64,000 nucleotides of DNA from Albidovulum aestuarii (lineage in GTDB: Bacteria; Pseudomonadota; Alphaproteobacteria; Rhodobacterales; Rhodobacteraceae): NCBI RefSeq assembly GCF_029961185.1, contig NZ_JASBQQ010000004.1, forward strand, positions 186,001-250,000, given 5' to 3'. Position numbers and translations under genes: made by a program. Of the stretch, positions 20,523-38,676 are shown piece after piece. Every line of letters starts with the position of its first letter. Position 1 is the stretch's first letter. Under the pieces are notes generated by a model. It was not told the origin of the DNA. It searched no databases and saw nothing but the letters and a program-made list of their open reading frames with translations.

Positions 20523-21281
20523 CGCGGTGATCTCCAGAAGTTCGGCGTGAAGCTCTGCCGTTGCGGCGGCCACGGTTGCGACGCCGGTCTGCATGGCGAG
20601 CTTTTCACCTTGCCAGCCCGTCATCATCCCACCCGCTTCCTCCACCAGAAGCGCCACGGCGTGATAGTCATAGGGTTGCAGATCGAAATCCACGACCGCA
20701 TCTACATGGCCCGAGGCGAGGAGCGCGTAAGGATAGCAGTCATAGGCGAAGCGCCTTGTGCGGCCGAATTCCATGAGGCGGGCAAAGACCCCGGGCGCGG
20801 CGCGCCAGATCTTTTCACCTTCGTTGATGTAGAGCACCGCGCTGTCCTGCCCCCGGCGGCCGGAGGTGCGCAGCTTCTGCCCGTTCAGCATCGCGCCTTG
20901 CCCCCTTGCGGCGGCGTAAACCTCTCCCATGGCGGGGGCCGAGACGATGGCGAGGTCGGCTGTGCCGTGCGTCTGCTTGGCCAGCAGGAAGCCGAACAAA
21001 GGATGGCCGGTCATGAAGCTGCGGGTACCGTCGATCGGATCGACGATCCAGAGGTCGTCGGCCTCGCCGCGTTCGATCCCCTGTTCCTCGCCATAGATGC
21101 CGTGGCCCGGGAAGCGCTCGGCGATCAGGCGGCGCACTTCGGCTTCCACCGCGCGGTCGGCCTGCGTTACCGGGCTGTCGTCTGACTTGAAATCGACGCC
21201 AAGGGCGCCCCGGAAATGGCGCATCGCCACCCGGCCAGCCGCCTCGGCGATCTGAATGGCATCGGCCATGGTCGCAGTCAT
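20511..21281 (-). CDS. hisN: Histidinol-phosphatase, inositol monophosphatase family
   Basis: A 256-residue member of the lithium-sensitive phosphatase superfamily. Metal-binding motifs are G-E-E-Q-G near residue 69 and D-P-I-D-G-T-R-S-F near residue 82, with the late Y-D-Y-H-A-V-A-L-L-V-E-E-A-G-G segment. The D-G-T-R-S-F form and the length fit the HisN branch, which removes phosphate from histidinol phosphate, but general inositol-phosphatase activity cannot be excluded. Its start overlaps the stop of the DeoR gene by 4 nt, so it may be read from that gene's promoter. Confidence 0.8.
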   Translation of the reverse strand: MTATMADAIQIAEAAGRVAMRHFRGALGVDFKSDDSPVTQADRAVEAEVRRLIAERFPGHGIYGEEQGIERGEADDLWIVDPIDGTRSFMTGHPLFGFLLAKQTHGTADLAIVSAPAMGEVYAAARGQGAMLNGQKLRTSGRRGQDSAVLYINEGEKIWRAAPGVFARLMEFGRTRRFAYDCYPYALLASGHVDAVVDFDLQPYDYHAVALLVEEAGGMMTGWQGEKLAMQTGVATVAAATAELHAELLEITASGL

Positions 21282-22069
21282 TTCACCGTTACTTCCTTTG
21301 CAATACGCACCGACACGCCCCAGCCCTTCAGCGCTTCGGCAAGGCGGGCGGGTGGGGCGCGGTCGGTGACCAGCAGGTCGATATCGGCGGGGTCGCAGGA
21401 GACCTGCGGCGCCCGGCGGCCGAATTTTTCGTGATCCGCCGTCACGATGGGACGGTGGGCCTGTTCGACCGCGACGCGCGAAATGGCCGCCTCGGCCGGG
21501 TTGAAGACGAGAAAGCCGTGGCGGTCGTTCAACGCGTTGGCCGAGAGGATCGCGACATCGAAGGCGTGGCGGCGCAACACCTCTTCCGCGAGGGGGCCGT
21601 AGGTGCCGCGTTCGTCATGGCCGACATCGCCGCCGGTCAGAACCACGCGGTTATCGTTGTGATGGGCCAGCGTCTGGGCGACGGGCATGGAGTTTGTCAC
21701 GACATAAAGCCGGTGATGGGCGCGCAGCGCCTCGGCGACGAAGGTCGTGGTGGTGCCGACATCGAGGAAGATGCACATGCCGTCCGTGATCTCGCGTGCG
21801 ACAGTCGTGGCGATGCGCTTCTTTCCGTCGGGATTCTGTGCGATGCGCTGGTAAAAGCCGGGCTCCACACCGGCCAGGACAGTGCCGCCGTGAAGCCGTT
21901 CGACTTTGCCATCATCGGCTAGTGTCTTGACCAGCCGTCGTACCGTTTCTTCTGAAACATCCATGGCTTGCGCGATGTCGGCATTGCGCGCCGACCCGCC
22001 CTGACGGCGCAGGACTTCCAGCAGTTCAAACTGCCGGTGGCTGGTCTTTCCACCGTCCGGTCGCGTCAT
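21278..22069 (-). CDS. DeoR/GlpR family transcriptional regulator
   Basis: A 263-residue repressor with an N-terminal DeoR-type helix-turn-helix (residues about 12-65, A-D-I-A-Q-A-M-D-V-S-E-E-T-V-R-R) and a C-terminal sensor domain with D-V-G-T-T-T-T-F-V and L-T-G-G segments, which normally bind a sugar or polyol phosphate. It is divergent from the phosphonate monoester hydrolase-like gene and shares a 121-nt regulatory region with three direct repeats. I infer that it controls the hydrolase-importer unit, with a phosphorylated ligand as a plausible effector. Confidence 0.85.
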   Translation of the reverse strand: MTRPDGGKTSHRQFELLEVLRRQGGSARNADIAQAMDVSEETVRRLVKTLADDGKVERLHGGTVLAGVEPGFYQRIAQNPDGKKRIATTVAREITDGMCIFLDVGTTTTFVAEALRAHHRLYVVTNSMPVAQTLAHHNDNRVVLTGGDVGHDERGTYGPLAEEVLRRHAFDVAILSANALNDRHGFLVFNPAEAAISRVAVEQAHRPIVTADHEKFGRRAPQVSCDPADIDLLVTDRAPPARLAEALKGWGVSVRIAKEVTVK

Positions 22070-22090
22070 GGCTCCTCCCTAAACGGAATT

Positions 22091-22120
22091 TAGCCCACAT
22101 AAATCCACAAAAATCCACGA
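22091..22120. promoter_or_regulatory. Three direct repeats, candidate DeoR operator
   Basis: Three consecutive units of about 10 nt, each ending in a CCAC core: TAGCCCACAT, AAATCCACAA and AAATCCACGA. One unit per helix turn on the same DNA face is typical of DeoR-family sites. They lie in the divergent region between the regulator (22069) and the hydrolase gene (22191). Confidence 0.5.
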
Positions 22121-22190
22121 AATTTCATTGCACCGAATCAAAATTGTTGCACTTCTGGGCGATAACGACGCCCACAGGAGGGGCTGAGCA

Positions 22191-23699
22191 GTGCCAAGGG
22201 ACAACATCCTTTTCGTCGTGATTGACCAGCTTAGGGCGGACTGCCTGCATGGCGCGCTAGCGGAGCATGTCGATCTGCCGAATCTGAGCGCGCTGATGGC
22301 CGAAGCTGCGTCCTTTCACCGCCATTACTCGGTCGCCAATCCCTGTGGCCCTTCGCGCGCCTCGCTTTTGACCGGGCAATACGCGATGAATCACCGCTCG
22401 GTCCGGAACGGCACACCCCTGCCGCATGATACGCCGAACCTTGCGACGGAGATGCGAAAGGCGGGCTGGCTGCCGCTGCTTTTTGGCTACACCGATGCGA
22501 CGCCCGATCCGCGTGTCCACGCGCCGGGTGATCCGGTGCTGAAAAGCTATGAGCAGGTATTGCCCGGCTTTCAGGAAGTCGTCGAGATGCGGCTGGAGGA
22601 AAGCCTGCCATGGCGGGCGTATCTGATGGAAAAGGGCTATGACGTGCCGCCCTATCCCGAGATCTTCCGCCCGACCGGCCCGCGCCCCGAGGACCCGGCG
22701 CTTTACAGGGCCGAGGACAGCGATACGGCGTTCCTGACCGATGAGACAATCCGCGCCCTGCGCGCCCGACCGCAGGGCTGGTTCGCGCATGTGACCTATA
22801 TCCGGCCGCACAATCCCTTGGTCGCACCGGAACCCTATAACCGGATGTATGACCCTGCCAGCCTGCCCTTGCCTGCACGCACGGGGACGATGGCGGAGGA
22901 GCAGGCGGTCCATCCATTTGTCGACCCGTGTCATGCAAAGAACCCGATCTCGGGCATGGTGGAGGGGTTCGCCGATCTTGAACCAACGGATGAGAACATC
23001 CAGCAATTGCGGGCGATCTACCTGGGGCTTGCGACCGAGGTGGATCACCATTTCGGACGCCTGATCGGCTTCTTGAAAGAGACCGGCCAGTATGACCGGA
23101 CCCTGATCATCGTGACCGCTGATCACGGCGAGATGCTGGGCGACCGTTATATCTGGGCGAAGTCGACCTATCACGATGCGGCCTATCATGTGCCGCTGAT
23201 CATCCGCGATCCGGCTTTGCCGGGGTCGTTCGGTGCCGCACATGACCTGCCGACGGAATCCATCGACATCACGCCGACGATCCTTGACCGGTTCGGGCTG
23301 GAAGTGCCGCAGACAATGAACGGCCGGAGCCTGATGCCGGTCCTGCGCGGGGAAAGACCCCGCGGCTGGCGGCGCTATACGTTCGCGGAGCTGGATTTCG
23401 GTGATCCTGTCGACCCGACCATCGCACAGCAACGGCTGGGCCTGACGCCGGAGACGACGAACCTCGCCGTGCTCAGGGGCGGCGGGCATACGCTGGTTCA
23501 TTTCAATGGAGGTCTGCCGCCCCTGCTTTTTGATCACGGCGGCGATGGTGAGATGCGCGATATATCGGGCGAACCGGACGCGCAGGGCCGGATGGTGGAG
23601 ATGTACCGTGCCATGGCCGATCACCGGATGACTCATGCCGCGAGCCGCTTTACCCGCACGATGATAACGGCCGAGGGTGCCGTGACGGTGCCGCGATGA
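22191..23699 (+). CDS. Sulfatase-superfamily hydrolase, phosphonate monoester hydrolase-like
   Basis: A 502-residue alkaline-phosphatase-superfamily enzyme. Cys52 in C-G-P-S-R is the formylglycine precursor. The metal site opens with Asp12-Gln13 rather than the Asp-Asp of many sulfatases, a feature I associate with the characterised rhizobial phosphonate monoester hydrolase. Also visible are R-N-G near 72, G-Y-T-D near 99, R-P-H-N-P near 205 and the metal pair Asp311-His312. Such enzymes cleave phosphonate and phosphate esters. The start is GTG with AGGAGGGG upstream. There is no signal peptide, so it is cytoplasmic. Its neighbours are phosphonate genes, which favours the PMH reading over aryl or sugar sulfatase. 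Confidence 0.75.
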   Translation: MPRDNILFVVIDQLRADCLHGALAEHVDLPNLSALMAEAASFHRHYSVANPCGPSRASLLTGQYAMNHRSVRNGTPLPHDTPNLATEMRKAGWLPLLFGYTDATPDPRVHAPGDPVLKSYEQVLPGFQEVVEMRLEESLPWRAYLMEKGYDVPPYPEIFRPTGPRPEDPALYRAEDSDTAFLTDETIRALRARPQGWFAHVTYIRPHNPLVAPEPYNRMYDPASLPLPARTGTMAEEQAVHPFVDPCHAKNPISGMVEGFADLEPTDENIQQLRAIYLGLATEVDHHFGRLIGFLKETGQYDRTLIIVTADHGEMLGDRYIWAKSTYHDAAYHVPLIIRDPALPGSFGAAHDLPTESIDITPTILDRFGLEVPQTMNGRSLMPVLRGERPRGWRRYTFAELDFGDPVDPTIAQQRLGLTPETTNLAVLRGGGHTLVHFNGGLPPLLFDHGGDGEMRDISGEPDAQGRMVEMYRAMADHRMTHAASRFTRTMITAEGAVTVPR

Positions 23700-23705
23700 C
23701 CATGG

Positions 23706-23723
23706 GTGTACAAACATTTACAC
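23706..23723. promoter_or_regulatory. Inverted repeat, candidate operator
   Basis: GTGTA and TACAC flank an 8-nt spacer, ending 15 nt before the -35 of the predicted promoter for the transporter. The placement suits a regulator site. Confidence 0.35.
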
Positions 23724-23738
23724 GGGCGTTCGGCATGC

Positions 23739-23768
23739 TTGACGGGGTTTCGGTCGCAGGCCCATACT
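23739..23768 (+). promoter_or_regulatory. Predicted sigma-70-type promoter of the ABC transporter
   Basis: TTGACG, an 18-nt spacer and CATACT, about 215 nt before the substrate-binding protein gene. The 284-nt gap between hydrolase and transporter suggests the importer can be transcribed separately. Confidence 0.4.
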
Positions 23769-23983
23769 CGGGTCAGCGACGCCGGGAAACCGGCGCACCA
23801 AGGGGAAGAATCACGCGTTTGCTCATGGGCCGGATGGCCCGGACTACGCGTTCGATTCTGGCCATATCTGAAGGGAGGTACTGGACCTATACTTGATATC
23901 CGACCATTCATAGCGTTCGGGCAGTTGGCCGGATTACTTCATAATAAAAACGAATCCAACAAAGCCAAACAACGGGAGTGAAC

Positions 23984-26023
23984 ATGAAGAGACTGTTATT
24001 CGGCAGCGTTGCGCTGCTTGCATTGCCCATGGCGGCCTATGCGAATTGCCCTGGCATCACGGTTGCCGATATGGGCGGCATCGCGGCGGGTGCCTTTCCC
24101 CAGCAATATGATCTGGAGGAATTCCAGGCGGCCGCGGGCTGCACCATGGAGTTCTCGGAGAACCCGGCCATTGCCGATCTGAACGGCAAGATCCGCGGCA
24201 ACCCCGATGCGCCCGCTCTGGCCGACCGTCTTCCGGCAGAGCCGCTGGTCGTCGTTCCCTATGACTCGGTCGGAAAATACGGCGGCACGCTCGACGCGCT
24301 CTCGAACGCGACCGAGGCAGGGACGTCTGACTTCATGTCGGTTCGTCACGTCAACCTCGTGCGCTATTCGGACGATCTTGAGACCATCGTGCCCAACGTT
24401 GCCAAGTCGTGGGAATGGAACGACGACTATACGCAGCTGACCTTCCAGCTGCGCAAGGGCCACAAATGGTCGGACGGCCAACCCTTTACCTCGGCGGACG
24501 TGAAGTTCTGGTACGACAATCTCGCGCTCGATCCGAACATCAATGAAAAGCCCAAGGACTATGTGACCGTCGCGGGCGAGCGGATGGAGGTCGAGACACC
24601 GGACGAAACGACGGTGATCTTCAAGCTTCCGGCGCCGAAGCCGGGCCTTCTTGCGCATTTTGCCACGCACTACGCGCAGGGCTTCCAGCCCAAGCATTTC
24701 CTTGGCCAGTTTCATCCGGACATCAACCCGGATGCCGACGCGCTGGCGCAGAGCATGGGCTTTGAAAACGGCTATGACGCCATCAAGGCCTATTACGGCA
24801 ATTCGGACTGGATGGACACGCCGACGCCGATGCTGAACGCGCCCGACAAGCTGGCGGGGCTGCCGGCAGATGCAGCGCCGACGCTCGAAAGCCACATCGT
24901 CATCCGTGACACGACCGAGGGGCGGCATTTCGTAGCCAACCCCTATTACCACATGGTCGATACGACGGGTCAGCAGCTTCCCTACATCAACGAGATGGAC
25001 GAGCTTTACGCCAACGACCAGGAAGTTCGCCTCCTGAAGCTCGTGAACGGCGAGGCTGACTACAAGACCCAGTCGCTGCAACTGGCGGATGCCCCGCTGC
25101 TGCTCGAGAACCAGGAGAAGGGCGGCTATACGATCCAGCTGAAGCCGAAGATCGCGATGCATGCGGTGTCGTTCAACGTCACCTCGGCGGACGAAGAGAA
25201 GCGTAAGGTTTTTGGTGATTTCCGTTTCCGCAAGGCGATGTCGATCGCGATCAACCGGCAGGAGCTGAACGAGACCGCCTATTTCGGTGAGGGCGTGATC
25301 CAGCAGTATACCGGTTTCTCGCCGCTGCCGGATTACATCGACGAGCAATGGAAGACCTTCGCGACCGAGTTCGATCCCGACGGCGCCAAGGCGCTTCTGG
25401 ATGAGGTGGGCGTTGTCGATGCCGATGGCGACGGGTTCCGCGATCTGCCGAATGGTCAGCCGTTGGTGCTGAACCTGCAGTTCGCGACCCAGGGCATCGC
25501 CGGACAGGTCGTCGAACTGATCGGCCAGCACTGGGCCAATGTCGGTATCAACACGACGGTCAAGGAAATCACGCCGGACGAGTATCGCTCGGCGCAGTCC
25601 TCGAACCAGCTCGATGTGGGCCTGTGGGAAAAGGGCCAGCCGACCGGTATCATCCTTGGCAACAACGAGCTGTGGGTGCCGCCCTTTGAGAACTATTTTG
25701 CCCACCGCACGGGTATGCTCTGGGCTGAATGGGTCGACAGCAATGGCACGAGCGGTGTTGAACCGCCCGACTACGTCAAGACGTTGATGGCGGATATCAA
25801 CACGCTGCAATCGACGCCCGCGGGCACGGATGAGTTCAAGGCAACGGCGAACCGCATGGTGGAGGCGATGGTGTCCAACCTGCTCTTCATCGGCACGGCG
25901 CTGACGCCGGACCCGATCTATCACCGCAACGCGCTGAAGAACTTCCCGGAGTTCAAGACCGCGTCCTACGAATACTACCGGACTTATCCCTATCGGGGTC
26001 ACCAGTGGTACTTCGACGAGTGA
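23984..26023 (+). CDS. ABC transporter substrate-binding protein, peptide/Opp type, long form
   Basis: A 679-residue periplasmic solute-binding protein of family 5 (DppA/OppA class). ATG 23984 has GGGAG at 5 nt; GTG 23978 is inferior. The signal peptide ends A-A-Y-A. About 80 residues then precede the usual G-K-Y-G-G-T-L start of the domain, and the whole is roughly 130 residues longer than ordinary DppA. The extra N-terminal part contains two cysteines that could form a disulphide. Context suggests an organophosphonate rather than a peptide ligand, but that is inference. Confidence 0.85.
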   Translation: MKRLLFGSVALLALPMAAYANCPGITVADMGGIAAGAFPQQYDLEEFQAAAGCTMEFSENPAIADLNGKIRGNPDAPALADRLPAEPLVVVPYDSVGKYGGTLDALSNATEAGTSDFMSVRHVNLVRYSDDLETIVPNVAKSWEWNDDYTQLTFQLRKGHKWSDGQPFTSADVKFWYDNLALDPNINEKPKDYVTVAGERMEVETPDETTVIFKLPAPKPGLLAHFATHYAQGFQPKHFLGQFHPDINPDADALAQSMGFENGYDAIKAYYGNSDWMDTPTPMLNAPDKLAGLPADAAPTLESHIVIRDTTEGRHFVANPYYHMVDTTGQQLPYINEMDELYANDQEVRLLKLVNGEADYKTQSLQLADAPLLLENQEKGGYTIQLKPKIAMHAVSFNVTSADEEKRKVFGDFRFRKAMSIAINRQELNETAYFGEGVIQQYTGFSPLPDYIDEQWKTFATEFDPDGAKALLDEVGVVDADGDGFRDLPNGQPLVLNLQFATQGIAGQVVELIGQHWANVGINTTVKEITPDEYRSAQSSNQLDVGLWEKGQPTGIILGNNELWVPPFENYFAHRTGMLWAEWVDSNGTSGVEPPDYVKTLMADINTLQSTPAGTDEFKATANRMVEAMVSNLLFIGTALTPDPIYHRNALKNFPEFKTASYEYYRTYPYRGHQWYFDE

Positions 26024-26108
26024 TGTCGTGACGACAGTCTGACAGCGGACCGGGGCGGAGCAACCGCCCCGGTCCCGACGGCCCGCACCCGACTGACAGG
26101 ACCACCCC

Positions 26109-27119
26109 ATGGCCCAATTCGCCCAATTCGCGCTGACCCGAGCTTTCCTCGCGCTGGTTACGCTCCTGACCGTCTCGCTCATCGTCTTCACATTGATGGA
26201 ATTGGTGCCCGGCACCTGTGCGGAACGCTACCTTGCCTTCAAGAACACCCAAGGGTCACAGATCACCATCGCCGATATCGAGGCGGAGGAGAAACGTCTC
26301 GGGCTCGACAAGCCATTCCCGATCCGGTGGGGAAATTGGGTCTATAATGTTTTCGTCCACGGCGAGTTTGGCGACAGCTGCATTCTGAGGCTCGATATCA
26401 ATCAGCTTCTGGCGGACAAGTTCTGGATCTCGCTTGGCATCTGTATGGCCGCCCTGATCCTGTCCTACGCCATTGCGGTGCCCATAGGCATCGTGACCGC
26501 AAGTTCGACGAGTGCAATTGCCAACAACACGTTGCGCTTTGTCTCTTATCTCGGCCTGGCGCTGCCGAACTTCCTTCTGGCGCTCATTATCATGCTGATA
26601 TCGACGGTCCTCTTCGGTGACAGTCTGACCGGCCTCTTCTCAAAGGAATACCGCGACGCGGCCTGGAGCTGGGCCAAGTTCGGCGATTTCATCAGCCGCG
26701 CCTGGCTGCCCGTCTTCATCCTCGGCTGGTCGGCCACCGCCTTTGCCCTGCAGACGGTGCGGGCGCTGATGCTGGATGAGATCGGCAAGCTTTACGTTAC
26801 CGCAGCGGCGGCACGGGGTGTGTCGGGGTCGAAACTGCTCTGGCGGTACCCCGCCAAGCATTCGCTCGGGCCTGTGATCAACTCACTTGGTTTCGACCTG
26901 AACCGCATCTTCAACGAATTGCCTATCGTCGCGCTGATCCTGACGCTGACCGAGGCGGGGGCGCTTCTCTTTGAAAGTCTCGCCCGGTCGAATGACCAGC
27001 AATTGGCGGGAGCGATCATCTTCCTGCTGACCGCCAGCATCGTGGCCCTGAACTTCGTCACCGATATTCTCTTGGCCCTCATCGACCCGCGCGTCCGGCG
27101 CGGCATCATCGGATCGTAA
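26109..27119 (+). CDS. ABC transporter permease, DppB/OppB type
   Basis: A 336-residue inner-membrane protein with six or so hydrophobic segments. It has the long periplasmic loop after the first segment (L-M-E-L-V-P-G) typical of DppB-class permeases, and a cytoplasmic coupling stretch, R-A-L-M-L-D-E-I-G-K-L-Y-V-T-A-A-A-A-R-G, that contacts the ATPase. It lies 85 nt after the binding protein and 12 nt before the second permease. Confidence 0.88.
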   Translation: MAQFAQFALTRAFLALVTLLTVSLIVFTLMELVPGTCAERYLAFKNTQGSQITIADIEAEEKRLGLDKPFPIRWGNWVYNVFVHGEFGDSCILRLDINQLLADKFWISLGICMAALILSYAIAVPIGIVTASSTSAIANNTLRFVSYLGLALPNFLLALIIMLISTVLFGDSLTGLFSKEYRDAAWSWAKFGDFISRAWLPVFILGWSATAFALQTVRALMLDEIGKLYVTAAAARGVSGSKLLWRYPAKHSLGPVINSLGFDLNRIFNELPIVALILTLTEAGALLFESLARSNDQQLAGAIIFLLTASIVALNFVTDILLALIDPRVRRGIIGS

Positions 27120-27131
27120 GGGGAGGGGGCC

Positions 27132-28283
27132 ATGTTGTTTAAGCGCAAGACAGTCACCGCCGGGGTCGACCAGAAGGCCAAGGAAGCTTATTTCACCGCC
27201 TCGCAGGGGCAGCTGATCTGGGCGCGGTTCAAGGGCAACCGGACGGCCATGATCGCCGCCTGGGCGCTTGTCCTGATGATCATGATGGGCATCTTCGCAC
27301 CGTTCCTCTCGCCCTATGACCCGACCATCGCGGGCCGCGACGAGAACTATGAGAACGGCGCGCCGCAGATGCCGAAATTCTGGGACGAGAACGGCTTTTC
27401 GTTCCGCCCCTTCGTCTATGCGACCGAGCGTGAACGCTCGATCAAGACCAACTTCCGCTGGGTGGTGACCGAAAACCGTGAGCACCGGCTTTACATGCGG
27501 TTCTTCACCGAAGGCTGGGATTACAAGCTTCTGGGGGTAATCCCCGCCAATACGCACCTTTTTGGTCTTGATGAGGGCGGAAAGATCCACCTCTTTGGCA
27601 CCGATGGCAGCGGCAAGGATATCTTCGGGCGAACGCTCCACGCAATCTGGACATCGCTGGCGGTCGGCACGCTTGGCGTCTTCATCTCCTTCGTGCTGGC
27701 GCTGATCATAGGAGGGGTGGCCGGCTATTTCGGTGGCTGGATTGACAGCGTGTTGCAGATGATCACCGATGCGATCCGGACGGTGCCGTCGATCCCCTTG
27801 TTCATGGCGCTTGCCGCCTTCATGCCCGATCACTGGTCGTCCGAGACGCGGTTCTTCTTCATCTCGATCATCCTCGGCCTGATCGGCTGGCCGACACTTG
27901 CGCGCCGGATCAGGACGCATCTTCTGACCGAACGGACGCAGGAATACGTGCTGGCGGCGGAACTATCGGGCGCCTCGGCGGGCCACATCATCCGCCGCCA
28001 CCTGCTGCCTTCGTTCACCAGCTATATCATCGTCGATCTGATGATTTCCTTCCCCTACATGGTCCGCTCGGAAACCGCGCTGAGTTTCATCGGCCTCGGG
28101 CTGAAGGACCCCGTCAACTCGCTCGGCGCGCTGATGCAGAACGTCTCAAAGGCGGACGTGCTTCTGAACTACCAGTGGTACTTCATCCCCGTCATCTTCT
28201 TCGTGGCGCTGGTTCTGGCCTTCGTCTTTGTCGGTGACGGATTGCGCGACGCGGCTGACCCCTATTCGGATACGAAGAAATGA
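27132..28283 (+). CDS. ABC transporter permease, DppC/OppC type
   Basis: A 383-residue permease. After the first membrane segment is a periplasmic insert of about 110 residues, longer than in common DppC proteins, and the transport core begins near residue 165 with T-D-G-S-G-K-D-I-F-G-R. The coupling stretch is E-Y-V-L-A-A-E-L-S-G-A-S-A. The enlarged periplasmic part matches the enlarged binding protein and may be its docking surface (inference). The stop overlaps the next ATPase start (ATGA). Confidence 0.88.
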   Translation: MLFKRKTVTAGVDQKAKEAYFTASQGQLIWARFKGNRTAMIAAWALVLMIMMGIFAPFLSPYDPTIAGRDENYENGAPQMPKFWDENGFSFRPFVYATERERSIKTNFRWVVTENREHRLYMRFFTEGWDYKLLGVIPANTHLFGLDEGGKIHLFGTDGSGKDIFGRTLHAIWTSLAVGTLGVFISFVLALIIGGVAGYFGGWIDSVLQMITDAIRTVPSIPLFMALAAFMPDHWSSETRFFFISIILGLIGWPTLARRIRTHLLTERTQEYVLAAELSGASAGHIIRRHLLPSFTSYIIVDLMISFPYMVRSETALSFIGLGLKDPVNSLGALMQNVSKADVLLNYQWYFIPVIFFVALVLAFVFVGDGLRDAADPYSDTKK

Positions 28284-29275: not shown

Positions 29276-30273
29276 GCGAGACCCTGATCAAGGCCCGCGA
29301 CCTGTCGGTCGGCTTCAAGATCGGCTCCGGCTTCTTCGGCAAGTCGATCCTGAAGGCGGTGGACCATGTCGATATCGATATCGAAAAGGGCTCGTTCTTC
29401 GGCCTCGTCGGCGAAAGCGGCTCGGGCAAGACGACGCTGGGCCGGGCGCTTCTGAAGGCGGTGCCGATCACCGGTGGAACGGCGCATTATGCCGATGGCG
29501 AGGTCGACTATGACCTGACGACATTGGCGGGGCCGGAACTGAAGGACTATCGCAAGCGCGCGCAGCTGATCTTTCAGGACCCCTATGCCGCGCTGTCCCC
29601 CCGCATGACCGTGCGCGACATCATCGCCGAACCCTTGGAGGTGATGGGCCTGACCAAGACGCGGGAGGAGACGGATGCGCGGGTGCGCGAGATTGCCGCC
29701 AAATGCCGGCTGAACCTCGAACATCTGCGGCGCTTCCCGCATGCATTCTCGGGCGGTCAGCGCCAGCGGATTTCGATTGCGCGGGCGCTCGTCTCAGGGC
29801 CTAAATTCGTGGTTGCCGACGAAAGCGTGGCGGCGTTGGACGTCTCCATTCAGGCCGATGTTCTGAACCTGTTGAAGGAATTGCAGCGCGATCTGAAGAT
29901 CACCTTCCTCTTCATCAGCCATGACCTGTCGGTTGTCGCCCATACCTGCGATCATCTGGCGGTGATGTATCTCGGGCGGCTTGTGGAAAGCGCACCGACG
30001 CGCGAGGTTTTTAAAGCGCCGCGCCACCCCTATACCAAGGCCTTGTTCTCGGCGATCCCCTCGCTTGATCCCGATGACCGGGGATCTGCGCAAAAGCTCG
30101 AAGGCGAGATACCGTCGCCCACCAACCAGCCGCCGGGCTGCAAGTTCCACACCCGCTGCCCCTTCGTTGTGGATCGCTGCAAGGTCGAAGAGCCGGTGCT
30201 GGAGCATCCCGGCGATGGACACGAGGTGGCCTGCCACCGCTGGCGCGAACTGGCGGATACGTTGGCGGCTTGA
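29272..30273 (+). CDS. ABC transporter ATP-binding protein, DppF/OppF type
   Basis: A 333-residue partner ATPase with Walker A G-E-S-G-S-G-K-T, signature F-S-G-G-Q-R-Q-R and Walker B F-V-V-A-D-E-S. The usual D-E-P-T is D-E-S-V here, a common variant in this group. The C-terminal extension has G-C-K-F-H-T-R-C-P. It is the last gene of the importer, followed by a strong hairpin and a convergent aminotransferase-like gene. Confidence 0.93.
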   Translation: MSETLIKARDLSVGFKIGSGFFGKSILKAVDHVDIDIEKGSFFGLVGESGSGKTTLGRALLKAVPITGGTAHYADGEVDYDLTTLAGPELKDYRKRAQLIFQDPYAALSPRMTVRDIIAEPLEVMGLTKTREETDARVREIAAKCRLNLEHLRRFPHAFSGGQRQRISIARALVSGPKFVVADESVAALDVSIQADVLNLLKELQRDLKITFLFISHDLSVVAHTCDHLAVMYLGRLVESAPTREVFKAPRHPYTKALFSAIPSLDPDDRGSAQKLEGEIPSPTNQPPGCKFHTRCPFVVDRCKVEEPVLEHPGDGHEVACHRWRELADTLAA

Positions 30274-30297
30274 CGCAGGCAAAGCCCCCCACCCCCA

Positions 30298-30322
30298 TCC
30301 CCTCCCCACGAGGGGGAGGGGA
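30298..30322. terminator. GC-rich hairpin between convergent genes
   Basis: TCCCCTCCCC and GGGGAGGGGA form a perfect 10-bp stem with a 5-nt loop. There is no T-run. It lies between the importer and the leftward PbfA-like gene, so a two-way terminator or repeat-type element is likely. Confidence 0.55.
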
Positions 30323-30348
30323 GCCGAATGGGGTCACGGTTGGTCTTG

Positions 30349-31698
30349 TCAGCCAGCTTCGGAGCGAATGGCCTCGGCGACAATGGCAAGCGCCCGGTCG
30401 AGGTCACCTTTCGCGATCGTGAGGGGCGGGGAAAGCGTCAGGACGCATCCGGCGCTGATCTTGAAGCTGAGGCCCGCTTCAAGGCAGCGGTAATAGATGC
30501 GCTCTGCCGCTGCCTGGCCCGGCGCGCGGGTCTCGCGGTTCTCGACGATCTCGACCCCGAACATCAGGCCACGGCCGCGGATATCGCCGACGATCTTGTG
30601 GTCGCCCACCGTTTCGCGCAGCCGCTCCAGCGCATGGGCGCCAAGCTCCGCCGCCCGCTCCACCAGCCCCTCGTCGCGGATCACCGCGATGGTCTCCAGC
30701 GACGCCCGTGCTGTCACCGGGTTCTTTTCGTGGGTGTAGTGACCGATGGCGAAATCGCCGCAGACATCCAGATCGCGCCGCGCCAGCACCGCCGCGATGG
30801 GCAGGATGCCCCCGCCAAGCGCCTTGCCCAGCGTCACGATGTCGGGCACCACCTCGTCATGCTCAAAGGCGAACATCTTTCCGGTCTTGCCAAGGCCGGT
30901 CGGGATCTCGTCCATGATCAGAAGCGCGCCGTGGCGGTTGCAGGCCGCGCGTACCGCCTTCCAGAAGCCGGGCGGCGGCACGACCGGCACCGCGCGCATC
31001 GGCTCGGCAATAACGGCGGCGACGTCGCCTTCACGTTCCAGCACGAACTCCACCATCTTCGCACATGCCAGCGCACAGGTCTCGGGCCCCGCATGGCCAT
31101 AGGCGCAGCGATAGCAGTTGAAGGGGGCGACATGTTCAGCACCCGGCAGCAGCGGCCCGGCGATATGGGACCGGAAGGTTGCCTCGCCGCCGACCGACGA
31201 GGCGCCGAAACCCGCGCCGTGGAAGGCGTCCCAGAAGCTCACCGTCTTGAACCGCCCGGTTGCCGCCCGCGCGATGCGGAGCGCGACCTCATTCGCGTCC
31301 GAGCCGCCGGTGGTGAAGAGGACCTTGCCCAGATCGCCCGGCGCAAGCGCCCCGAGCGTCTCGGCCAGTTCTACCGAAATCTCGTTGGTGAAGCGGCGGG
31401 GCGAGAAACTCAGCGCATCCAACTGGTCCTTGATCGCGGCCACGACGCGCGGATGGCCATAGCCGATGTGATGGACGGAATTGCCATGGAAATCCATGTA
31501 GCGCCGCCCGGCGGTGTCCTCGATCCAGATGCCGTCCGCCTTGGCGATGGTGGAAACGCAGGGCGAGGACAGCGACTGATGCAGGAATGCATCCGCATCC
31601 CGCGCCAGCAAATCGCGCGTCGCCGCATCGGGATGGCGCGCCGCCCAATTGCGGCGCGCTTCCGATGTATTGGACTCGCCTTCGGTATGGGTGATCAC
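30349..31698 (-). CDS. Class III aminotransferase-fold PLP enzyme, PbfA-like
   Basis: A 449-residue PLP enzyme of aminotransferase class III. The cofactor lysine is in T-L-G-K-A-L-G-G-G and the acidic pair in L-L-I-M-D-E-I-P-T-G. In the phnW/phnY/phnA context, such proteins are known as PbfA, (R)-1-hydroxy-2-aminoethylphosphonate ammonia-lyase, which makes phosphonoacetaldehyde from the hydroxylated compound without transamination. That call rests mainly on neighbours; a true omega-aminotransferase remains possible. It lies 60 nt after phnY on the same strand and would be co-transcribed with it. Confidence 0.62.
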   Translation of the reverse strand: MITHTEGESNTSEARRNWAARHPDAATRDLLARDADAFLHQSLSSPCVSTIAKADGIWIEDTAGRRYMDFHGNSVHHIGYGHPRVVAAIKDQLDALSFSPRRFTNEISVELAETLGALAPGDLGKVLFTTGGSDANEVALRIARAATGRFKTVSFWDAFHGAGFGASSVGGEATFRSHIAGPLLPGAEHVAPFNCYRCAYGHAGPETCALACAKMVEFVLEREGDVAAVIAEPMRAVPVVPPPGFWKAVRAACNRHGALLIMDEIPTGLGKTGKMFAFEHDEVVPDIVTLGKALGGGILPIAAVLARRDLDVCGDFAIGHYTHEKNPVTARASLETIAVIRDEGLVERAAELGAHALERLRETVGDHKIVGDIRGRGLMFGVEIVENRETRAPGQAAAERIYYRCLEAGLSFKISAGCVLTLSPPLTIAKGDLDRALAIVAEAIRSEAG

Positions 31699-31758
31699 GC
31701 GCGCCTCACTTTCTGTCCGAAAATACTCCCGCCGGAGGCTCCCGTCCTCACCGCATGC

Positions 31759-33213
31759 TCAGCGTGGCCAGGGAAGCGAATAAGTCTTCACGTTGGTGAA
31801 GAACTTCATTGCCTCGGTCACACCTTCCTTCACGCCATTCCCGGAATCCTTGATCCCACCGAAGGGCGAGGTTTCGATGCGGTAGCCGGGTTGTTCCCAG
31901 ATGTTCACCGTGCCGACGTTCAGCCCTTCGATATAGGCCTGCATCCGGCGGAAGTCGTTGGTGCAGACGCCGGAGGAGAGGCCGAACTCGGTCGAGTTCG
32001 AGATGCGCATGACGTCGGCGTCATTGTCGGGCACGCGGACGATGGGAATGACGGGACCGAAGGTTTCCTCCATCACCAGCTCGCTGTCATGGGGCACGTG
32101 ATCGACGACGATGGGGGGCAGGAGCGCGCCCTTGCGGCCGGGATCGTAAAGCACCTGCGCCCCCTGATCGGCGGCCATGTAGACGCGCTTTTCGAAAAGC
32201 TCCGCCGCCTGCGCATGGATCACGCAGCCCAGTTCGGTCGCGGGGTCCATCGGATCACCGAACTTGATCTTCTTGGCTTTCTCCAGCACCAGCGGCACGA
32301 AGCGGTCGGCGACACTTTCCTGCACGAGGATGCGCTTCACCGCCGTGCAGCGCTGGCCGGAATTGCCGGTCGCCCCCGCCACGGCAATTGTCGCGGCCTT
32401 GTCGAGATCGGCATCGTCGAGGTCATTGAGGACGATCAGGGGATCGTTCCCACCCAGTTCCAGCGCCTGACGCTTGTAGACGCCCTTGGCGGCGATCATC
32501 TTGCCGACCGGCACGCCGCCGGTGAAGGTGATGATGTCGATATTCGGGTTGGTGATCATCTCGTCGCCGATGTCCTGCGGCAGGCCGGTGACGATCTGGA
32601 ACATCTCGGGCGGCAGCCCGGCCTCATAGAGGATATCGGCGAGCGTGATCGCAGTCAGCGGCGTCAGTTCCGTTGGCTTGCAGACCATGCAATTGTTGGT
32701 GGCGATCGACGGTGCGATCTTGTGGCTGACCATGTTCAGCGGGTGGTTGAAGGGCGTGATCGCAGAAATCGCGCGGACCGGTTCGCGCTTGGTATAGATC
32801 TTGCGGTCCTTGCCATTATGCGTGAGGTCGCAGGAAAAGATCTGGCCGTCATCCTGCAGCGCCTGGGCGGCAGCGAAGGTATAGACGTCCTGCGCGCGCT
32901 TCGTCTCGTAAACCGCGTGCTGGTAGCAGATGCCCAGCTCCAGTGTCAGCCACTTCGCCAGATAGTCCCGGCGTTCGCCGATGATCTCGCCGGTGCGCTT
33001 CAGGATCTGGCTGCGCTCGTATCGCGTGAGCTTCGAGCGGTAATTCGCGGCGATCTCGAAGGCCTTGCGGGCATGTTCGGCGGTGCCCGCCGGGACCGTC
33101 CCCACGACCTCATCGGTATAGGGATAGCGGACCTCGATCACCTTGTCGGTAAAGACCTTCTCGCCACCGATCCGCATGCCTTCGTGGCGTATGTCCTGGT
33201 TGATCTTGTTCAT
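31759..33213 (-). CDS. phnY: Phosphonoacetaldehyde dehydrogenase
   Basis: A 484-residue NAD(P)-dependent aldehyde dehydrogenase. The catalytic cysteine is near residue 289 in G-Q-R-C-T-A-V and the general base is in L-E-L-G-G-N-D. Length and context fit PhnY, which oxidises phosphonoacetaldehyde from the PhnW step to phosphonoacetate. The other two enzymes of this three-step route lie just upstream on the same strand, separated only by a GNAT gene on the opposite strand. Confidence 0.85.
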
Positions 33214-33249
33214 TCGGGCTTTCCTTTTCTCGGACCGGCGGTTTTGATG

Positions 33250-33266
33250 CCTCGCGCAAGGCGAGG
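33250..33266. promoter_or_regulatory. Hairpin covering the ribosome site of the GNAT gene
   Basis: CCTCGC and GCGAGG form a 6-bp stem with a 5-nt loop. The right arm contains GAGG, the ribosome site of the gene starting at 33273. The whole divergent region to phnY is only 59 nt. The hairpin could limit GNAT translation, or act as a regulator site for both genes. Confidence 0.35.
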
Positions 33267-33272
33267 TGCGGA

Positions 33273-33749
33273 ATGATCATTCGGGATGCGGGCGGCGGGG
33301 ATGCCGACACGATCTGGGCCATGCTGGAACCCGTCTTCCGGGCGGGCAATACCTATGCGATCGACAGGGACATTCCGCGCGAGGCGGCGCTTGCCTACTG
33401 GATGGGCGGACATGTCTTTCTGGCCGAAGAGGGGGGCCAGCCGCTTGGCACGTTCTACATTCAGCGCAACCGGCCGGGGGGCGGGGCGCATTACTGCAAT
33501 TGCGGTTTTGTCACCGCGCCGGGTTCTGAAGGACGCGGCGTGGCGCGGGTGATGCTGGACCATGCGCTTGTCAAGGCGCGCGCGCTGGGGTTCGAGGCGA
33601 TGGTCTTTAACTTCGTCGTGGCCAGCAACACACGTGCCGTCGCCCTCTGGCAGCGCTATGGGTTCGAAGAGGTCGGCCGCGTGCCGGGCGCATTCCGCCA
33701 GAGCGTCGGCGAAGATGCCGACGCTCTGGTGATGTTCCGTCGTCTGTGA
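33273..33749 (+). CDS. GNAT family N-acetyltransferase
   Basis: A 158-residue acetyltransferase with the acetyl-CoA loop in G-S-E-G-R-G-V-A-R (form Q/R-x-x-G-x-G/A) and the late [17 protein letters not shown] segment typical of GNAT proteins. It runs against the surrounding phn genes, divergent from phnY and convergent with phnA. By position it may acetylate an aminophosphonate, as PhnO does, either to detoxify it or to protect an intermediate. Sequence similarity to PhnO is not obvious, so the substrate is inferred only from context. Confidence 0.8.
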
Positions 33750-33770
33750 CCCTGCCACCATCCGCGCGCC

Positions 33771-35021
33771 TTAAAGTGCCGCCGCAGTGCAGGCATAGAG
33801 GAAGGCGTCGAAGTTCCTCAGTTCCGGCGCGTTCGGCAGGTCCACCTTGCGGTTGACGATGAAGGGCACTTCCTGCTCGGTCAAGCCGCCGTGGGAACGC
33901 AGGGGCTCCTTCAGCGCGGCGAGGTCGTGGCGGTGGGCCGAGGTGCCGATGGTCATGTTCTCGCCCGAGATCATGACGATGTCGCCGATCCGGTCGGCGG
34001 GCAGTTCGAAGCGTTTCACCGCCTCTTCGCGGGTGACGACAAGGATGATCTCGTCACGCGCGTCGAGTTTCGCCATGATATCGGCGCGGTCGGCACCGGC
34101 GGGCAGATAGCAGGTCGCGAAAGAGCCGAGCGCACCGTGGTGGACGACATAAGGATCGGTGATCGGCAGGATCACGCGGGCGGCGTCCTTGCCGAGCCAC
34201 TCGTCCATCAGGTCCTGTACATAGATCACCGCAGGCGTCCCGTCCGCGTTGTGCTTGGGCTTCATGCCGTGGTCGGCGGTGACGACGACCGCGGCGCCGA
34301 GCGCGTCAAGCTCGGCCAGATAACGGTCGAACATCGCGTAAAAGTCCTTCGCGCCCTGTTGGTCGGGGGCGTATTTGTGCTGGATGTAGTCCGTCGTCGA
34401 GAGGTACATCACATCGGGTTTGAATTCCTTCAGCAACTTGACCCCGGCGGCGAAGACAAACTCGGAAAGCTCCGCCGAATAGACTTCAGGAACCGGCATG
34501 CCGAGCCATGCGCTCGCATTGTCGATCCCGTGTTCGGCCTTGGTCGTGGTGTCGGACTTCTCCGACGAGAAGGCGACCGCGCGGTCCTCGTCGAACTTCA
34601 GCCCCGCGCCCAGAAGCGCGCGCAGCTTGTCCTTGGCGGTGACCATGGCCACCCGGGCGCCAGCCTCATAAAACCGCGAAAAGATCGTCGGCGCGCGCAG
34701 GAAGCGGACGTCGTTCATCATCACCTCTTCGCCCGTCTCGGGGTCATAGAGGTAGTTGCCGCAGATGCCATGCACCGCCGGGGGCCGCCCGGTGGCGATG
34801 GAAAGGTTGTTGGGGTTGGTGAAGGACGGAATGACCGAATGGGCCAGCCGGTCGGTTCCCTCCGCCCGCATCCGCTTCAGGGTCGGCATCAGGCCTTCGG
34901 CGATGGCGACTTCCAGATATTCCGGCTCACACCCGTCAAGGCAGATCGCTACGGCGGGCACTTTCGGCCATGGATAGGCGCGGTCATTCGCCATCACAGG
35001 CGCGCGGTTTTGCATGTTCAT
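33771..35021 (-). CDS. phnA: Phosphonoacetate hydrolase
   Basis: A 416-residue alkaline-phosphatase-superfamily enzyme that splits phosphonoacetate into acetate and phosphate. Expected zinc and nucleophile residues are in place: Asp29 in C-L-D-G, Thr68 in S-F-T-N-P-N-N, Asp211 and His215 in T-T-D-Y-I-Q-H, Asp250-His251 in T-A-D-H-G-M, and a late His in R-S-H-G-G. The start at 35021 leaves 35 nt after phnW, so the two probably share a transcript. It is not the unrelated alkylphosphonate protein PhnA of E. coli. Confidence 0.92.
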   Translation of the reverse strand: MNMQNRAPVMANDRAYPWPKVPAVAICLDGCEPEYLEVAIAEGLMPTLKRMRAEGTDRLAHSVIPSFTNPNNLSIATGRPPAVHGICGNYLYDPETGEEVMMNDVRFLRAPTIFSRFYEAGARVAMVTAKDKLRALLGAGLKFDEDRAVAFSSEKSDTTTKAEHGIDNASAWLGMPVPEVYSAELSEFVFAAGVKLLKEFKPDVMYLSTTDYIQHKYAPDQQGAKDFYAMFDRYLAELDALGAAVVVTADHGMKPKHNADGTPAVIYVQDLMDEWLGKDAARVILPITDPYVVHHGALGSFATCYLPAGADRADIMAKLDARDEIILVVTREEAVKRFELPADRIGDIVMISGENMTIGTSAHRHDLAALKEPLRSHGGLTEQEVPFIVNRKVDLPNAPELRNFDAFLYACTAAAL

Positions 35022-35056
35022 CTTGGGTCCTTCCGTCTCAAATTTCGGGCGCCGCC

Positions 35057-36241
35057 TCAGGCGGCGAGCTTGGCGCGTTCGGCAATCGCGGCTTCGGGCG
35101 GGGCGGCAGAGGCGACGCCCATTTCAGCGAGAGCCTCCTTCGCGGCCTGAACCACGCGTCGCATCACATGTTCGTCCATCCGGCCGATGCAGCCGACGCG
35201 GAACGAGTCCACGACCGTCAGCTTTCCGGGGTAGATGATAAATCCCTTCTGTTTCATCTTCTCGTAGAAGTCGTTGAAGACGAAGCTCGGATCGGCCGGG
35301 CAGAAGAAGGTCACGATGATCGGGCTGAGCCAGCGGTCCTTCAGAAGCGTCTCAAACCCCAGTTCCCGCATCCCTTCGACCATAACGTCGCGGTTCCGCG
35401 TATACCGTGCGCCGCGGCCCGCAACCCCACCTTCTTCGGCATGGATGCGCAGGGCTTCCAGAAAGGCTGCGACGACATGGGTGGGCGGCGTGTAGCGCCA
35501 CTGGCCGGTCTTTTCGAGATAGGCCCATTGCGCGTGGATATCGAGCGCGAGCGAGTGGCTGTTGCCCTTGCACGCCTCCAGTTCCGAGCGCCGCGCGATG
35601 ACGAAGCCGAAGCCCGGCACGCCCTCGATGCATTTGTTGGCCGAGGACACCATCGCCTCGTACCTGATCTCGTTCACGTCGAGGGGCAGGGCGCCGAAGG
35701 CGGACATCGAGTCAATCAGAAGCTTGCGGCCCTTGGCGTAAACGGATTCGGAGATTTCGGCGACCGGGTTCAGGATGCCCGACGACGTCTCGCAATGGAT
35801 CACGATCACATGGGTGATGTCGGGATCGGCATCGAGTGCGGCGGCGACCTCATCGCCGCGCGGCGGCATGTAGTCGCCCTTGTCGATCAGGGTGTAGCCG
35901 CGGCCAAGGTATTTCATCGTCTCGGCGGCGCGGAGCCCGTAAGCGCCGTTCGCCAGAACCAGAACCTTGCCGTCCCAGGGAATGAACGTGCCGAGCATCG
36001 CCTCGACCGAGAAGGAGCCCGAGCCCTGCATCGGTACGCAGACGAACTCTCCCTTCGTGTCGCCTGCAAGCGTAACAAGCTGATTGCAAAGCGATTTCGT
36101 CATGGCGCGGAAATCGGCATCCCACGAACCCCAGTCCTTCAGCATCGCTTCCTTGGTGGAAAAGGCCGTGGTCAGCGGGCCGGGGGTCAAGAGATAGGGC
36201 TCGCCCAGTTTGGGGGTCGGCAGGGGTGTGGTCTGCGTCAT
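35057..36241 (-). CDS. phnW: 2-aminoethylphosphonate--pyruvate transaminase
   Basis: A 394-residue class V aminotransferase. The start phrase L-L-T-P-G-P-L-T-T and the PLP lysine in [15 protein letters not shown] are characteristic of PhnW. It transfers the amino group of 2-aminoethylphosphonate to pyruvate, giving phosphonoacetaldehyde and alanine. ATG 36241 has GGAG 7 nt upstream and matches the family N-terminus; the in-frame ATG at 36286 adds 15 odd residues. It is the first gene of the leftward phn set and is divergent from a LysR regulator. Confidence 0.92.
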
Positions 36242-36296
36242 GCGGAGGCTCCGTTGGGGACGCTGCGGATGGCGGTCTTTTTCCATGTGTCACACC

Positions 36297-36347
36297 ATAT
36301 GTAAAATCGTTAATTTAGATTGATATATAAGTATTAATGATACATAT
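36297..36347. promoter_or_regulatory. AT-rich phnW/lysR divergent control region with inverted repeat
   Basis: ATATGTA at 36297 and TACATAT at 36341 form a 7-bp inverted repeat spaced 37 nt. Inside it is very AT-rich DNA with a second, smaller inverted pair, TTAAT and ATTAA. Two half-sites across a divergent promoter is the usual arrangement for a LysR regulator that controls its neighbour and itself. Confidence 0.5.
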
Positions 36348-36374
36348 GTGGAACATATCCGTCGGGATGCCACC

Positions 36375-37247
36375 ATGCGTTATGTCCAGCTTCGCGCCTT
36401 TCACCACGTGGCCATTTCCGGCGGGTTTTCCCGGGCCGCGGAGGCGTTGCATCTGACCCAGCCCGCGATCTCCGATCAGGTGCGCAAGCTGGAAGAGGAA
36501 TACGACGTCCTGCTCTTTAACCGCCACAAGCGGCAAGTGTCCCTTACGCCTCAGGGTGAGCGTCTGCTGGAGATCACGAGGCGGCTTTTCGACAGCGAAA
36601 GCCAGGCGCTGGATCTTTTGTCCGAGGCGCGCGCGCTGCGCTCTGGGGCTCTGCGTATCGTGGCGGACAGCGCGCATCACCTGCTGCATATCCTCGCCCG
36701 GTTCCGCGACCGCTATCCCGGGGTGCGGATCACGGTTCATGCCGGCAATACAGAAAGCGTGCTGGATGCGCTTTACGCCTATGAGGCTGATATCGGGGTT
36801 CTGGGCAACATGCCCGAAAGCCGCGATATCGAGGCGCTGAAGCTGAACTCCACGCCGATTACCGCTTTCGTGGCGCGCGATCATCCGGTGGCGCGCCGGT
36901 CCAGCCTGACGTTCCGCGACCTGGCCGGGCTGCCGCTGGTGTTTCGCGAGGAAGGGTCGCGGACGCGGGCCAAGCTGGAAGAGACCGCGCGGGCCGCAGG
37001 CGTGGTGCTGACGCCCGCCATCGAAGCCGAGGGGCGCGAGGCGGTGCGGGAGATTGTCGCCTCGGGCGCAGGCGTGGGCTTTGTCTCGGCGGCCGAGTTC
37101 GGGTCGGACGCGCGACTGGTCAGCATCCCGATCGAGGGCGGGGCCGCGATGGTGATGGACGAGGCGCTGATCTGTCTGCGCGAGCGCAAGGCGGGCAAGC
37201 TGGTGCAGGCCTTCTTCGAGGTGGCGGCAGAAATGGCGAGCGGTTAG
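36375..37247 (+). CDS. LysR family transcriptional regulator of the phn genes
   Basis: A 290-residue LysR protein with the N-terminal helix-turn-helix (F-S-R-A-A-E-A-L-H-L-T-Q-P-A-I-S, residues about 15-35) and a periplasmic-binding-protein-like sensor domain. ATG 36375 begins the canonical M-R-Y-V-Q-L-R-A-F; GTG 36348 would add nine residues and lies inside the control region. Being divergent from phnW, it probably activates phnW-phnA in response to 2-aminoethylphosphonate. That ligand is inferred. Confidence 0.87.
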   Translation: MRYVQLRAFHHVAISGGFSRAAEALHLTQPAISDQVRKLEEEYDVLLFNRHKRQVSLTPQGERLLEITRRLFDSESQALDLLSEARALRSGALRIVADSAHHLLHILARFRDRYPGVRITVHAGNTESVLDALYAYEADIGVLGNMPESRDIEALKLNSTPITAFVARDHPVARRSSLTFRDLAGLPLVFREEGSRTRAKLEETARAAGVVLTPAIEAEGREAVREIVASGAGVGFVSAAEFGSDARLVSIPIEGGAAMVMDEALICLRERKAGKLVQAFFEVAAEMASG

Positions 37248-38499: not shown

Positions 38500-38608
38500 C
38501 GAATCTCCTTTCGCTGTGAGGCCAGTTGACCGCATCGGGACGGCGGTCACAAGGATCTGGGCTGTATTCGGACGTTGACCCGGCGTCCACTTCGCGCTAT
38601 CGCCTGTC

Positions 38609-38664: not shown

Positions 38665-38676
38665 GGAGGCCCGAGG

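Follow-up and report, generated by a model that had tools for sequence, protein, structure and literature searches.

We asked how a bacterium of the Rhodobacteraceae might gain access to 2-aminoethylphosphonate (AEP) that is bound in an ester. The question is raised by a phosphonate locus of Albidovulum aestuarii (21278–37247 of the window, which here means the whole stretch of 64,000 nucleotides that was analysed). The locus includes genes for a DeoR regulator, a relative of the phosphonate monoester hydrolases (PMH), a complete family-5 (Opp-type) ATP-binding cassette (ABC) importer, PbfA, PhnY, a GNAT acetyltransferase, PhnA, PhnW and an AEP-type LysR regulator; an inositol-monophosphatase-family (IMPase) gene overlapping deoR is part of the set, and the unit therefore begins left of 21278. 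The locus is a new front end on the known AEP pathway. There is good support for a functional link between the importer, PMH and the breakdown of AEP. An ester of AEP is favoured as the cargo with modest confidence, and a sugar as the other half of this cargo is suggested tentatively.

The genes named in a preliminary description of this DNA were all real and all correctly positioned, as judged from gene calls and family models. The set is as follows.

20511–21281, minus strand: inositol-monophosphatase-family phosphatase (HisN-like), overlapping deoR by 4 bp (PF00459 159.8 bits, cut-off 27)
21278–22069, minus strand: DeoR/GlpR-type regulator, divergent from the hydrolase (PF00455 160.5 bits, PF08220 35 bits)
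22191–23699, plus strand: PMH relative, alkaline phosphatase superfamily, sulfatase fold (best PDB match 4upk)
23978–26023, plus strand: family-5 (cluster C) solute-binding protein SBP_bac_5 (PF00496 191 bits)
26109–27119, plus strand: OppB-type permease (PF00528, PF19300)
27132–28283, plus strand: OppC-type permease (PF00528, PF12911)
28280–29275, plus strand: OppD-type ATPase (PF00005, PF08352)
29272–30273, plus strand: OppF-type ATPase (PF00005, PF08352)
30349–31698, minus strand: PbfA (NF049939 676 bits, cut-off 525)
31759–33213, minus strand: PhnY, phosphonoacetaldehyde dehydrogenase (TIGR03250 768 bits, cut-off 635.65)
33273–33749, plus strand: GNAT acetyltransferase, accessory (PF00583 50.1 bits)
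33771–35021, minus strand: PhnA, phosphonoacetate hydrolase (TIGR02335 511.7 bits, cut-off 407.55)
35057–36286, minus strand: PhnW, 2-AEP:pyruvate transaminase (PRK13479 568 bits, cut-off 296; TIGR02326 477 bits, cut-off 400.8)
36348–37247, plus strand: AEP-associated LysR regulator, phn_lysR (TIGR03339 364 bits, cut-off 341.1)

Two units converge at about 30.3 kb, with PMH and importer reading rightward and the phn genes leftward, each with its own regulator; these are two convergent units and not a single operon. PhnW, PhnY and PhnA each passed the curated cut-off of their family models and together form a predicted route from AEP to acetate and phosphate. This three-enzyme set had been described along with a PbfA-like lyase and two regulators, and was confirmed, with PbfA and phn_lysR also over curated cut-offs and DeoR assigned by Pfam. 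The importer is complete as described (SBP_bac_5, two BPD_transp_1 permeases and two ATPases with oligo_HPY), and the sulfatase-superfamily hydrolase beside it is the PMH relative. The GNAT gene is present, but is not conserved and lies on the strand opposite to the flanking phnY and phnA; among 16 fetched loci that have both phnY and phnA (two of the sixteen are one genome), L063 alone has a GNAT gene, and GNAT was dropped as a core part. The earlier statement that the window has no C-P lyase and no PhnX holds for the window, but the 4.24 Mb genome carries PhnJ of C-P lyase on another contig (G000:C28, 472.7 bits); no protein of this genome was over the PhnX cut-off.

Co-occurrence was assessed within the same 394 genomes of the family (393 genera in the tallies), with thresholds of E≤1e-60 for PMH and for PhnA, E≤1e-150 for the binding protein and E≤1e-80 for PhnW. 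PMH was present in 74 genomes, PhnA in 55, the binding protein in 61 and PhnW in 73 (full sets, including 13 low-identity PMH genomes). PMH and binding protein occurred together in 49 genomes (odds ratio 50), binding protein and PhnW in 47 (odds ratio 40), and PMH and PhnW in 47 (odds ratio 20); PMH was with PhnA in 36, and the binding protein with PhnA in 37. Fisher p values for the five pairs, not corrected for kinship, were 4e-17 to 2e-32. Paired genes lay ≤25 kb apart in 37/49 genomes for PMH and binding protein, 24/47 for PMH and PhnW, 23/47 for binding protein and PhnW, 14/36 for PMH and PhnA, and 12/37 for binding protein and PhnA. All three genes were chained (PMH to binding protein and binding protein to PhnW each ≤25 kb) in 22 of the 41 genomes with PMH, binding protein and PhnW; the chaining counts are lower bounds, since L175, L176 and L201 show phnY, pbfA or a piece of phnW beside importers that were counted as unlinked. 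PhnW or PhnA was present in 48 of the 61 binding-protein genomes, and PMH in 49; PhnW was present in 47 of the 74 PMH genomes and missing from 27, and 20 of the 73 PhnW genomes had neither importer nor PMH. The conserved linkage of hydrolase and importer with phnW/phnA that the preliminary description proposed to look for in relatives was thus found, and neither importer nor hydrolase occurred mainly without phn genes. The linkage of importer, PMH and AEP genes is not chance.

The linkage recurs in several gene orders. Among named relatives the nearest is Defluviimonas sp. WL0050 (L075; PMH 91% identical). Its order, RibD-IMPase-DeoR-PMH-importer-PbfA-PhnY-PhnA, is that of the window to the end of the fetched stretch, and L078 is also of this type. 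Seven loci (L036, L037, L062, L063, L064, L074, L096) have PhnY-PhnA-PhnW on one strand and LysR on the other, followed by PMH and importer on the strand of LysR, with an IMPase gene in between in two of them; in L158 importer-PMH meets PbfA-PhnY-PhnA-PhnW. In L060, L069 and L070 importer, PhnW and PhnX share a strand and PMH is convergent. The order importer-PhnW-PhnX-PMH on one strand was found in 5 of 7 divergent loci (L162, L163, L165, L166, L168; binding protein 46–50% identical), the others being L167 with the parts in another order and L164 without PhnW; PhnX of L070 and L165 scored 293 and 341 bits (cut-off 220). Plasmid pSC52_2 of Rhodobacteraceae bacterium SC52 (sea cucumber intestine content) carries a single run of genes for an ABC binding protein, a pair of permeases, a pair of ATPases, PhnW, PhnX and a hydrolase. 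The deposited annotation names the last three as AEP transaminase, phosphonoacetaldehyde hydrolase and sulfatase-like hydrolase, and of the 7 gaps in the run 6 are ≤22 bp; hydrolase and binding protein are 46% and 48% identical to those of the window. The only plasmids matching the binding protein at E≤1e-120 were pSC52_2 and a Ruegeria conchae plasmid.

The PMH relative matched 4upk, labelled phosphonate monoester hydrolase, with 643 bits over residues 3–499, and has in common with the solved PMHs (2vqr, 2w8s, 4upk, 4uph) full-length homology and the CxPxR motif. This motif is C52-G-P-S-R56, and C52, P54 and R56 were invariant in 22 aligned sequences. Against the PehA model NF045661 the protein scored 414.5 bits (cut-off 900), i.e., it is a relative of PehA and not a PehA equivalog; it differs from the known PMHs in sitting with an AEP pathway and an importer. 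No signal peptide was visible in the PMH relative, and its substrate must therefore enter the cell. As a separate observation, a CehA/McbA-type metallohydrolase gene was seen near importers without PMH in the fetched stretch (L183 7039–8217, over cut-off; L191 3596–4516, same cluster), and could replace PMH in these loci.

The binding protein starts with a signal-like N-terminal stretch. A profile built from 22 binding proteins was compared with the PDB, and its top match (345.7 bits) was SPH1118, a pectin-binding cluster C protein with a 619-aa chain (PMC9314435, from the part of that paper available). Two other saccharide binders scored 150.5 bits (AgpA, alpha-galactosides) and 115.6 bits (a chitin-oligosaccharide binder), versus 68.2 bits for a dipeptide binder and 47.8 for a classic oligopeptide binder; several intermediate entries were labelled peptide-transporter. 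The peptide-type equivalog models were not reached (Opp4A 107.6 vs 650 bits, DppA 43.2 vs 1005). In an alignment read by eye, the stacking Trp594 of SPH1118 aligned with a nearly invariant Tyr664. The resemblance suggests that the binding protein perhaps has a saccharide-like site, with a ligand other than that of SPH1118. Since the best solved match binds an acidic saccharide, a conjugate with a sugar is more probable than a phosphonopeptide.

We propose that the family-5 binding protein and Opp-type importer would bring in an ester of AEP intact, its alcohol part being most probably a sugar, an oligosaccharide or another polyol. The PMH, which from its family and the lack of a visible export signal would be cytosolic, would cleave the P-O-C bond to yield AEP and the alcohol. 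PhnW, PhnY and PhnA would then turn AEP into alanine, acetate and phosphate, with PhnX replacing PhnY/PhnA in some relatives; PbfA, by its family membership, would handle the 1-hydroxy analogue, and the phosphatase beside deoR would presumably act on a phosphomonoester product. Import, release and degradation of phosphonate conjugates had been put forward in the preliminary description; gene linkage speaks for it, including the one-strand runs of the 5/7 divergent loci and pSC52_2, but a conjugate rather than free AEP is something that we infer. A conjugate is favoured because the PMH has no visible signal peptide and because of the best solved matches of the binding protein.

Several of these parts have been described separately. 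The PhnWYA / PhnWX pathway with PbfA and phn-LysR is known, and the window has the complete enzyme set of the PhnWYA branch, with the LysR, over cut-offs; it differs from the known clusters in that this set is coupled to a family-5 importer and PMH. A term search of the main texts of PMC8154272 and PMC10590968 on such clusters gave no occurrence of "monoester" or "sulfatase", and "monoester" was likewise missing from the review PMC10574752. According to the available part of PMC8316502, genes of the importers AepXVW, AepSTU and AepP adjoin phnWAY/phnWX, as in the window, but AepX and AepS are pfam13343 proteins and AepP is a major facilitator, whereas the window has SBP_bac_5, two permeases and two ATPases; no pfam13343 match was found in the window importer, the only match at E≤0.001 being SBP_bac_5. 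The earlier claim that the AEP importers known so far belong to other families fits this one paper on transporters.

Phosphonate esters occur on marine polysaccharides of high molecular weight (those reported are of methylphosphonate and hydroxyethylphosphonate), and conjugates of 2-AEP with glycans, with lipids and with proteins have been reported (available parts of PMC5649143 and PMC9381506). Alkaline-phosphatase-like enzymes, with PEH among the candidates, were postulated by Sosa et al. to release phosphonates from polysaccharides, with no importer mentioned in the part of that paper available (PMC5649143); enzymes of this kind freeing bound phosphonate are also suggested in PMC8931226, as far as the available text goes. 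No paper that links the degradation of AEP with both a PMH and an Opp-type importer was found in the open PMC literature, as far as the available texts go, most subscription literature lying outside this search. The closest working precedent is the Agrobacterium acc (agrocinopine) operon, which like the window has a DeoR-family repressor, an ABC importer and a phosphodiesterase/phosphatase for an imported sugar phosphodiester (available part of PMC4526662). The likeness is one of gene content, and the hydrolase of the window is instead a PMH relative with a presumed phosphonate ester as substrate.

Some relatives are wired differently, which may point to a module for both aminoethyl-phosphate and aminoethyl-phosphonate esters. 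Opening of phosphoethanolamine diesters (of glycans, or glycerophosphoethanolamine) would then yield ethanolamine together with the phosphate of a sugar or of glycerol, on which the phosphatase would act, and phn would be one of two exchangeable downstream cassettes. On the R. conchae plasmid a sulfatase-like hydrolase lies opposite DeoR, IMPase, N-formylglutamate amidohydrolase, a glutamine-synthetase-like enzyme, an aldehyde dehydrogenase, an iron-type alcohol dehydrogenase, EamA, DeoR and the whole importer; no phn-annotated gene lies in this 26-kb stretch. The cassette resembles the gamma-glutamyl ethanolamine route proposed in PMC6529630 (glutamine-synthetase-like enzyme, short-chain dehydrogenase, aldehyde dehydrogenase and a formylglutamate-amidohydrolase-family enzyme, from the part available), with the iron-type replacing the short-chain dehydrogenase. 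At least two of the four enzymes were found in 13 of 180 loci (L035–L214, some of the same genome), the IMPase gene beside deoR would suit a phosphate product, and PMHs are described as active on phosphonate monoesters and phosphodiesters (available part of PMC5649143). Because some relatives pair importer and PMH with this predicted cassette, phosphoethanolamine diesters may be substrates too, and a single importer with a single PMH could handle both kinds of ester, which are close in shape. Against this, the cassette is missing from the window, which has none of the four enzymes, and from the L075 stretch, the function of the cassette is only predicted, and it lies beside the module less often than the phn genes do (6 vs 27 of 80 sample loci). 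We regard a dual phosphate and phosphonate module as unlikely for this locus.

Import of free AEP by the Opp-type system, with the hydrolase serving another reaction, is a very improbable alternative. It would agree with the linkage of importer and phnW/phnA and with the score of phnS2, a model for a putative AEP importer, whose best match in the genome of 222.7 bits is under the cut-off of 392.75; however, PMH is linked to the importer at least as tightly as the phn genes are (49/61 genomes, 37 within 25 kb), and pSC52_2 has it within the same gene run.

A number of observations weigh against the import and cytosolic opening of an AEP ester. The binding protein was found without PhnW and PhnA in 13 of 61 importer genomes, six of which also lack PMH, and 23 of the 61 have no PMH, PhnW or PhnA within 25 kb (phn genes are nevertheless seen in three or more of the 23). 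By gene flags assigned from hand-typed lists, 18 of 80 fetched sample loci combined PMH, importer and phn but lacked the ethanolamine cassette, and one had all four, with PMH alone in 21 and the importer alone in 17. In 80 named loci PMH stood alone in 49 (no importer, phn or ethanolamine genes in the flanks), mostly in Ruegeria/Leisingera, with the importer in 25 and phn genes in 8; the named loci are best PMH hits, and so Ruegeria-rich, the two sets share genomes, and some loci stop at contig ends. Upon the binding-protein tree the PMH-phn association was not significant (sign test, median p 0.125). The ligand arginines of SPH1118 (Arg57/438/466/496) align with other residues in the binding protein of the window, as read by eye, so kinship with SPH1118 does not name the ligand; the attempt to assign one from this pocket was given up and none is claimed. 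Finally, maturation of the active-site Cys has no evident enzyme: the genome gave no match to the formylglycine-generating enzyme (PF03781), and 34.7 bits to the radical-SAM maturase TIGR03942 (cut-off 349.45). According to the available part of PMC5870055, E. coli converts such a Cys by an unidentified enzyme.

The neighbours might be accidental, or a phosphorus-themed island without a shared pathway, as the binding-protein tree shows 12 changes of the PMH label and 13 of the phn label, and many loci lack one part; we give this a slight chance, since the association is seen repeatedly, with the genes ordered in more than one way and also as a single run on one strand. An importer for aminophosphonate-containing peptides, with an unrelated PMH, would fit the Opp/Dpp family and the second match of the profile (5ipw, 336.9 bits, labelled putative oligopeptide-binding, which still speaks for it and is a further point against a sugar ester), but is hardly credible and was not our first choice, as the saccharide binders outscored the dipeptide and classic oligopeptide binders, and no peptidase was noticed among the identified neighbours (not every neighbour was scanned).

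Returning to the proposed import of an AEP ester, LysR would control the phn unit, and DeoR, whose signal, like that of AccR, is probably a phosphorylated sugar product, would control PMH via a triple 10-bp repeat; AccR, a DeoR-family repressor of Agrobacterium, senses the sugar phosphate freed by AccF from the imported phosphodiester (available part of PMC4526662). The candidate elements are as follows.

22094–22123, plus strand: candidate DeoR operator, three 10-bp direct repeats YCCACRNNNN, between divergent deoR and PMH
23739–23768, plus strand: candidate importer promoter TTGACG-18-CATACT, with similar hexamers in most close relatives aligned
23898–23934, plus strand: hairpin-forming segment in the importer leader, near clade only

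Near-matches to the operator (≤2 mismatches) numbered 25 in 160 loci (3.09 Mb), of which 22 (18 loci, some from the same genome twice) lay ≤200 bp from a PMH start; the other three were beside another DeoR gene, 475 bp before a binding-protein gene, and elsewhere. As the motif was read from the same intergenic regions, it is tested only by how rare it is elsewhere. Across the genome its count equalled that of a reversed-pattern control (1 vs 1), and the count in the window was reached by 7 of 100 shuffles. Promoter-like sites in the region were no more frequent than in shuffles (3 vs mean 3.8), and the hairpin of the window folded no better than shuffles (z 0.18). A conserved leader block precedes the importer gene (23854–23939 and L075–L088; TATCCGAAGGGAGG..CTATAC, then the hairpin, with stem GTAGC/GTTAC in some relatives) and is confined to the near clade.

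As to the remaining genes, the IMPase-family protein scored 235.5 bits against the HisN model TIGR02067, under the cut-off of 275, and its gene adjoins DeoR/PMH in many relatives; no NCBIfam equivalog model reached its cut-off with the DeoR protein. A 982-aa open reading frame (30328–33276, plus strand), antisense to pbfA-phnY and without family match, was rejected as an artefact, as were the other antisense frames, including cluster 14 of the protein clustering of 80 loci. Within these clustered loci a Na/Pi-symporter-like gene (cluster 7; the representative passes the model) was found in 15, including L042, L045 and L055, often beside IMPase and DeoR, and may export surplus phosphate; a phn_DUF6-like gene (147 bits, under the cut-off of 288) was found in 9. 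Homoprotocatechuate-type genes beside PMH in L050, L053 and L058 were taken as clade synteny.

Outside the family, 6 genomes of a 337-genome sample of the class had the binding protein (E≤1e-140); in the fetched stretches a PMH-like neighbour was found only in L197, and PhnW in none. In L197 (G552, another family of the class) the genes that follow on the importer strand are two of Gfo/Idh/MocA type (one assigned by Pfam, the other by an NCBIfam match under its cut-off), EamA and an aldose epimerase, and a PehA-type hydrolase (411 bits, cut-off 900; 31% identical to the PMH of the window) is divergent from the importer. L158 has, upstream of its binding protein, a gene resembling sugar-acid dehydratases (below cut-offs), and a metagenome bin titled Nitratireductor (L090) has PMH, importer and PbfA together. 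A Rhodobacteraceae-type PMH locus titled Nocardioides marinus (L139, JAHVJD010000012.1) matches genome G238:C12 of the family sample, and the name looks wrong. Apart from the phosphonate locus, the sole Rfam match was a SAM-alpha riboswitch (38601–38678, plus strand; 62 bits, gathering 36) that overlaps the start called for a gene of O-succinylhomoserine sulfhydrylase (38609–39898); owing to this overlap, the called start codon is probably too far upstream.

We suggest, as a possibility falling short of an even chance, that the Rhodobacteraceae have a widespread route in which intact sugar conjugates of aminoethyl-phosphonate (or, with the other cassette, of aminoethyl-phosphate) would be imported and opened by PMH in the cytosol, feeding AEP or ethanolamine catabolism. 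PMHs are best known as models of promiscuity; if the route is real they gain a physiological role, and ester cleavage is placed after import. On the question of how bacteria reach bound phosphonate, the linked importer, ester hydrolase and AEP pathway make a specific and testable proposal, and the module offers a marker for users of conjugates that is distinct from aepX or phnD.

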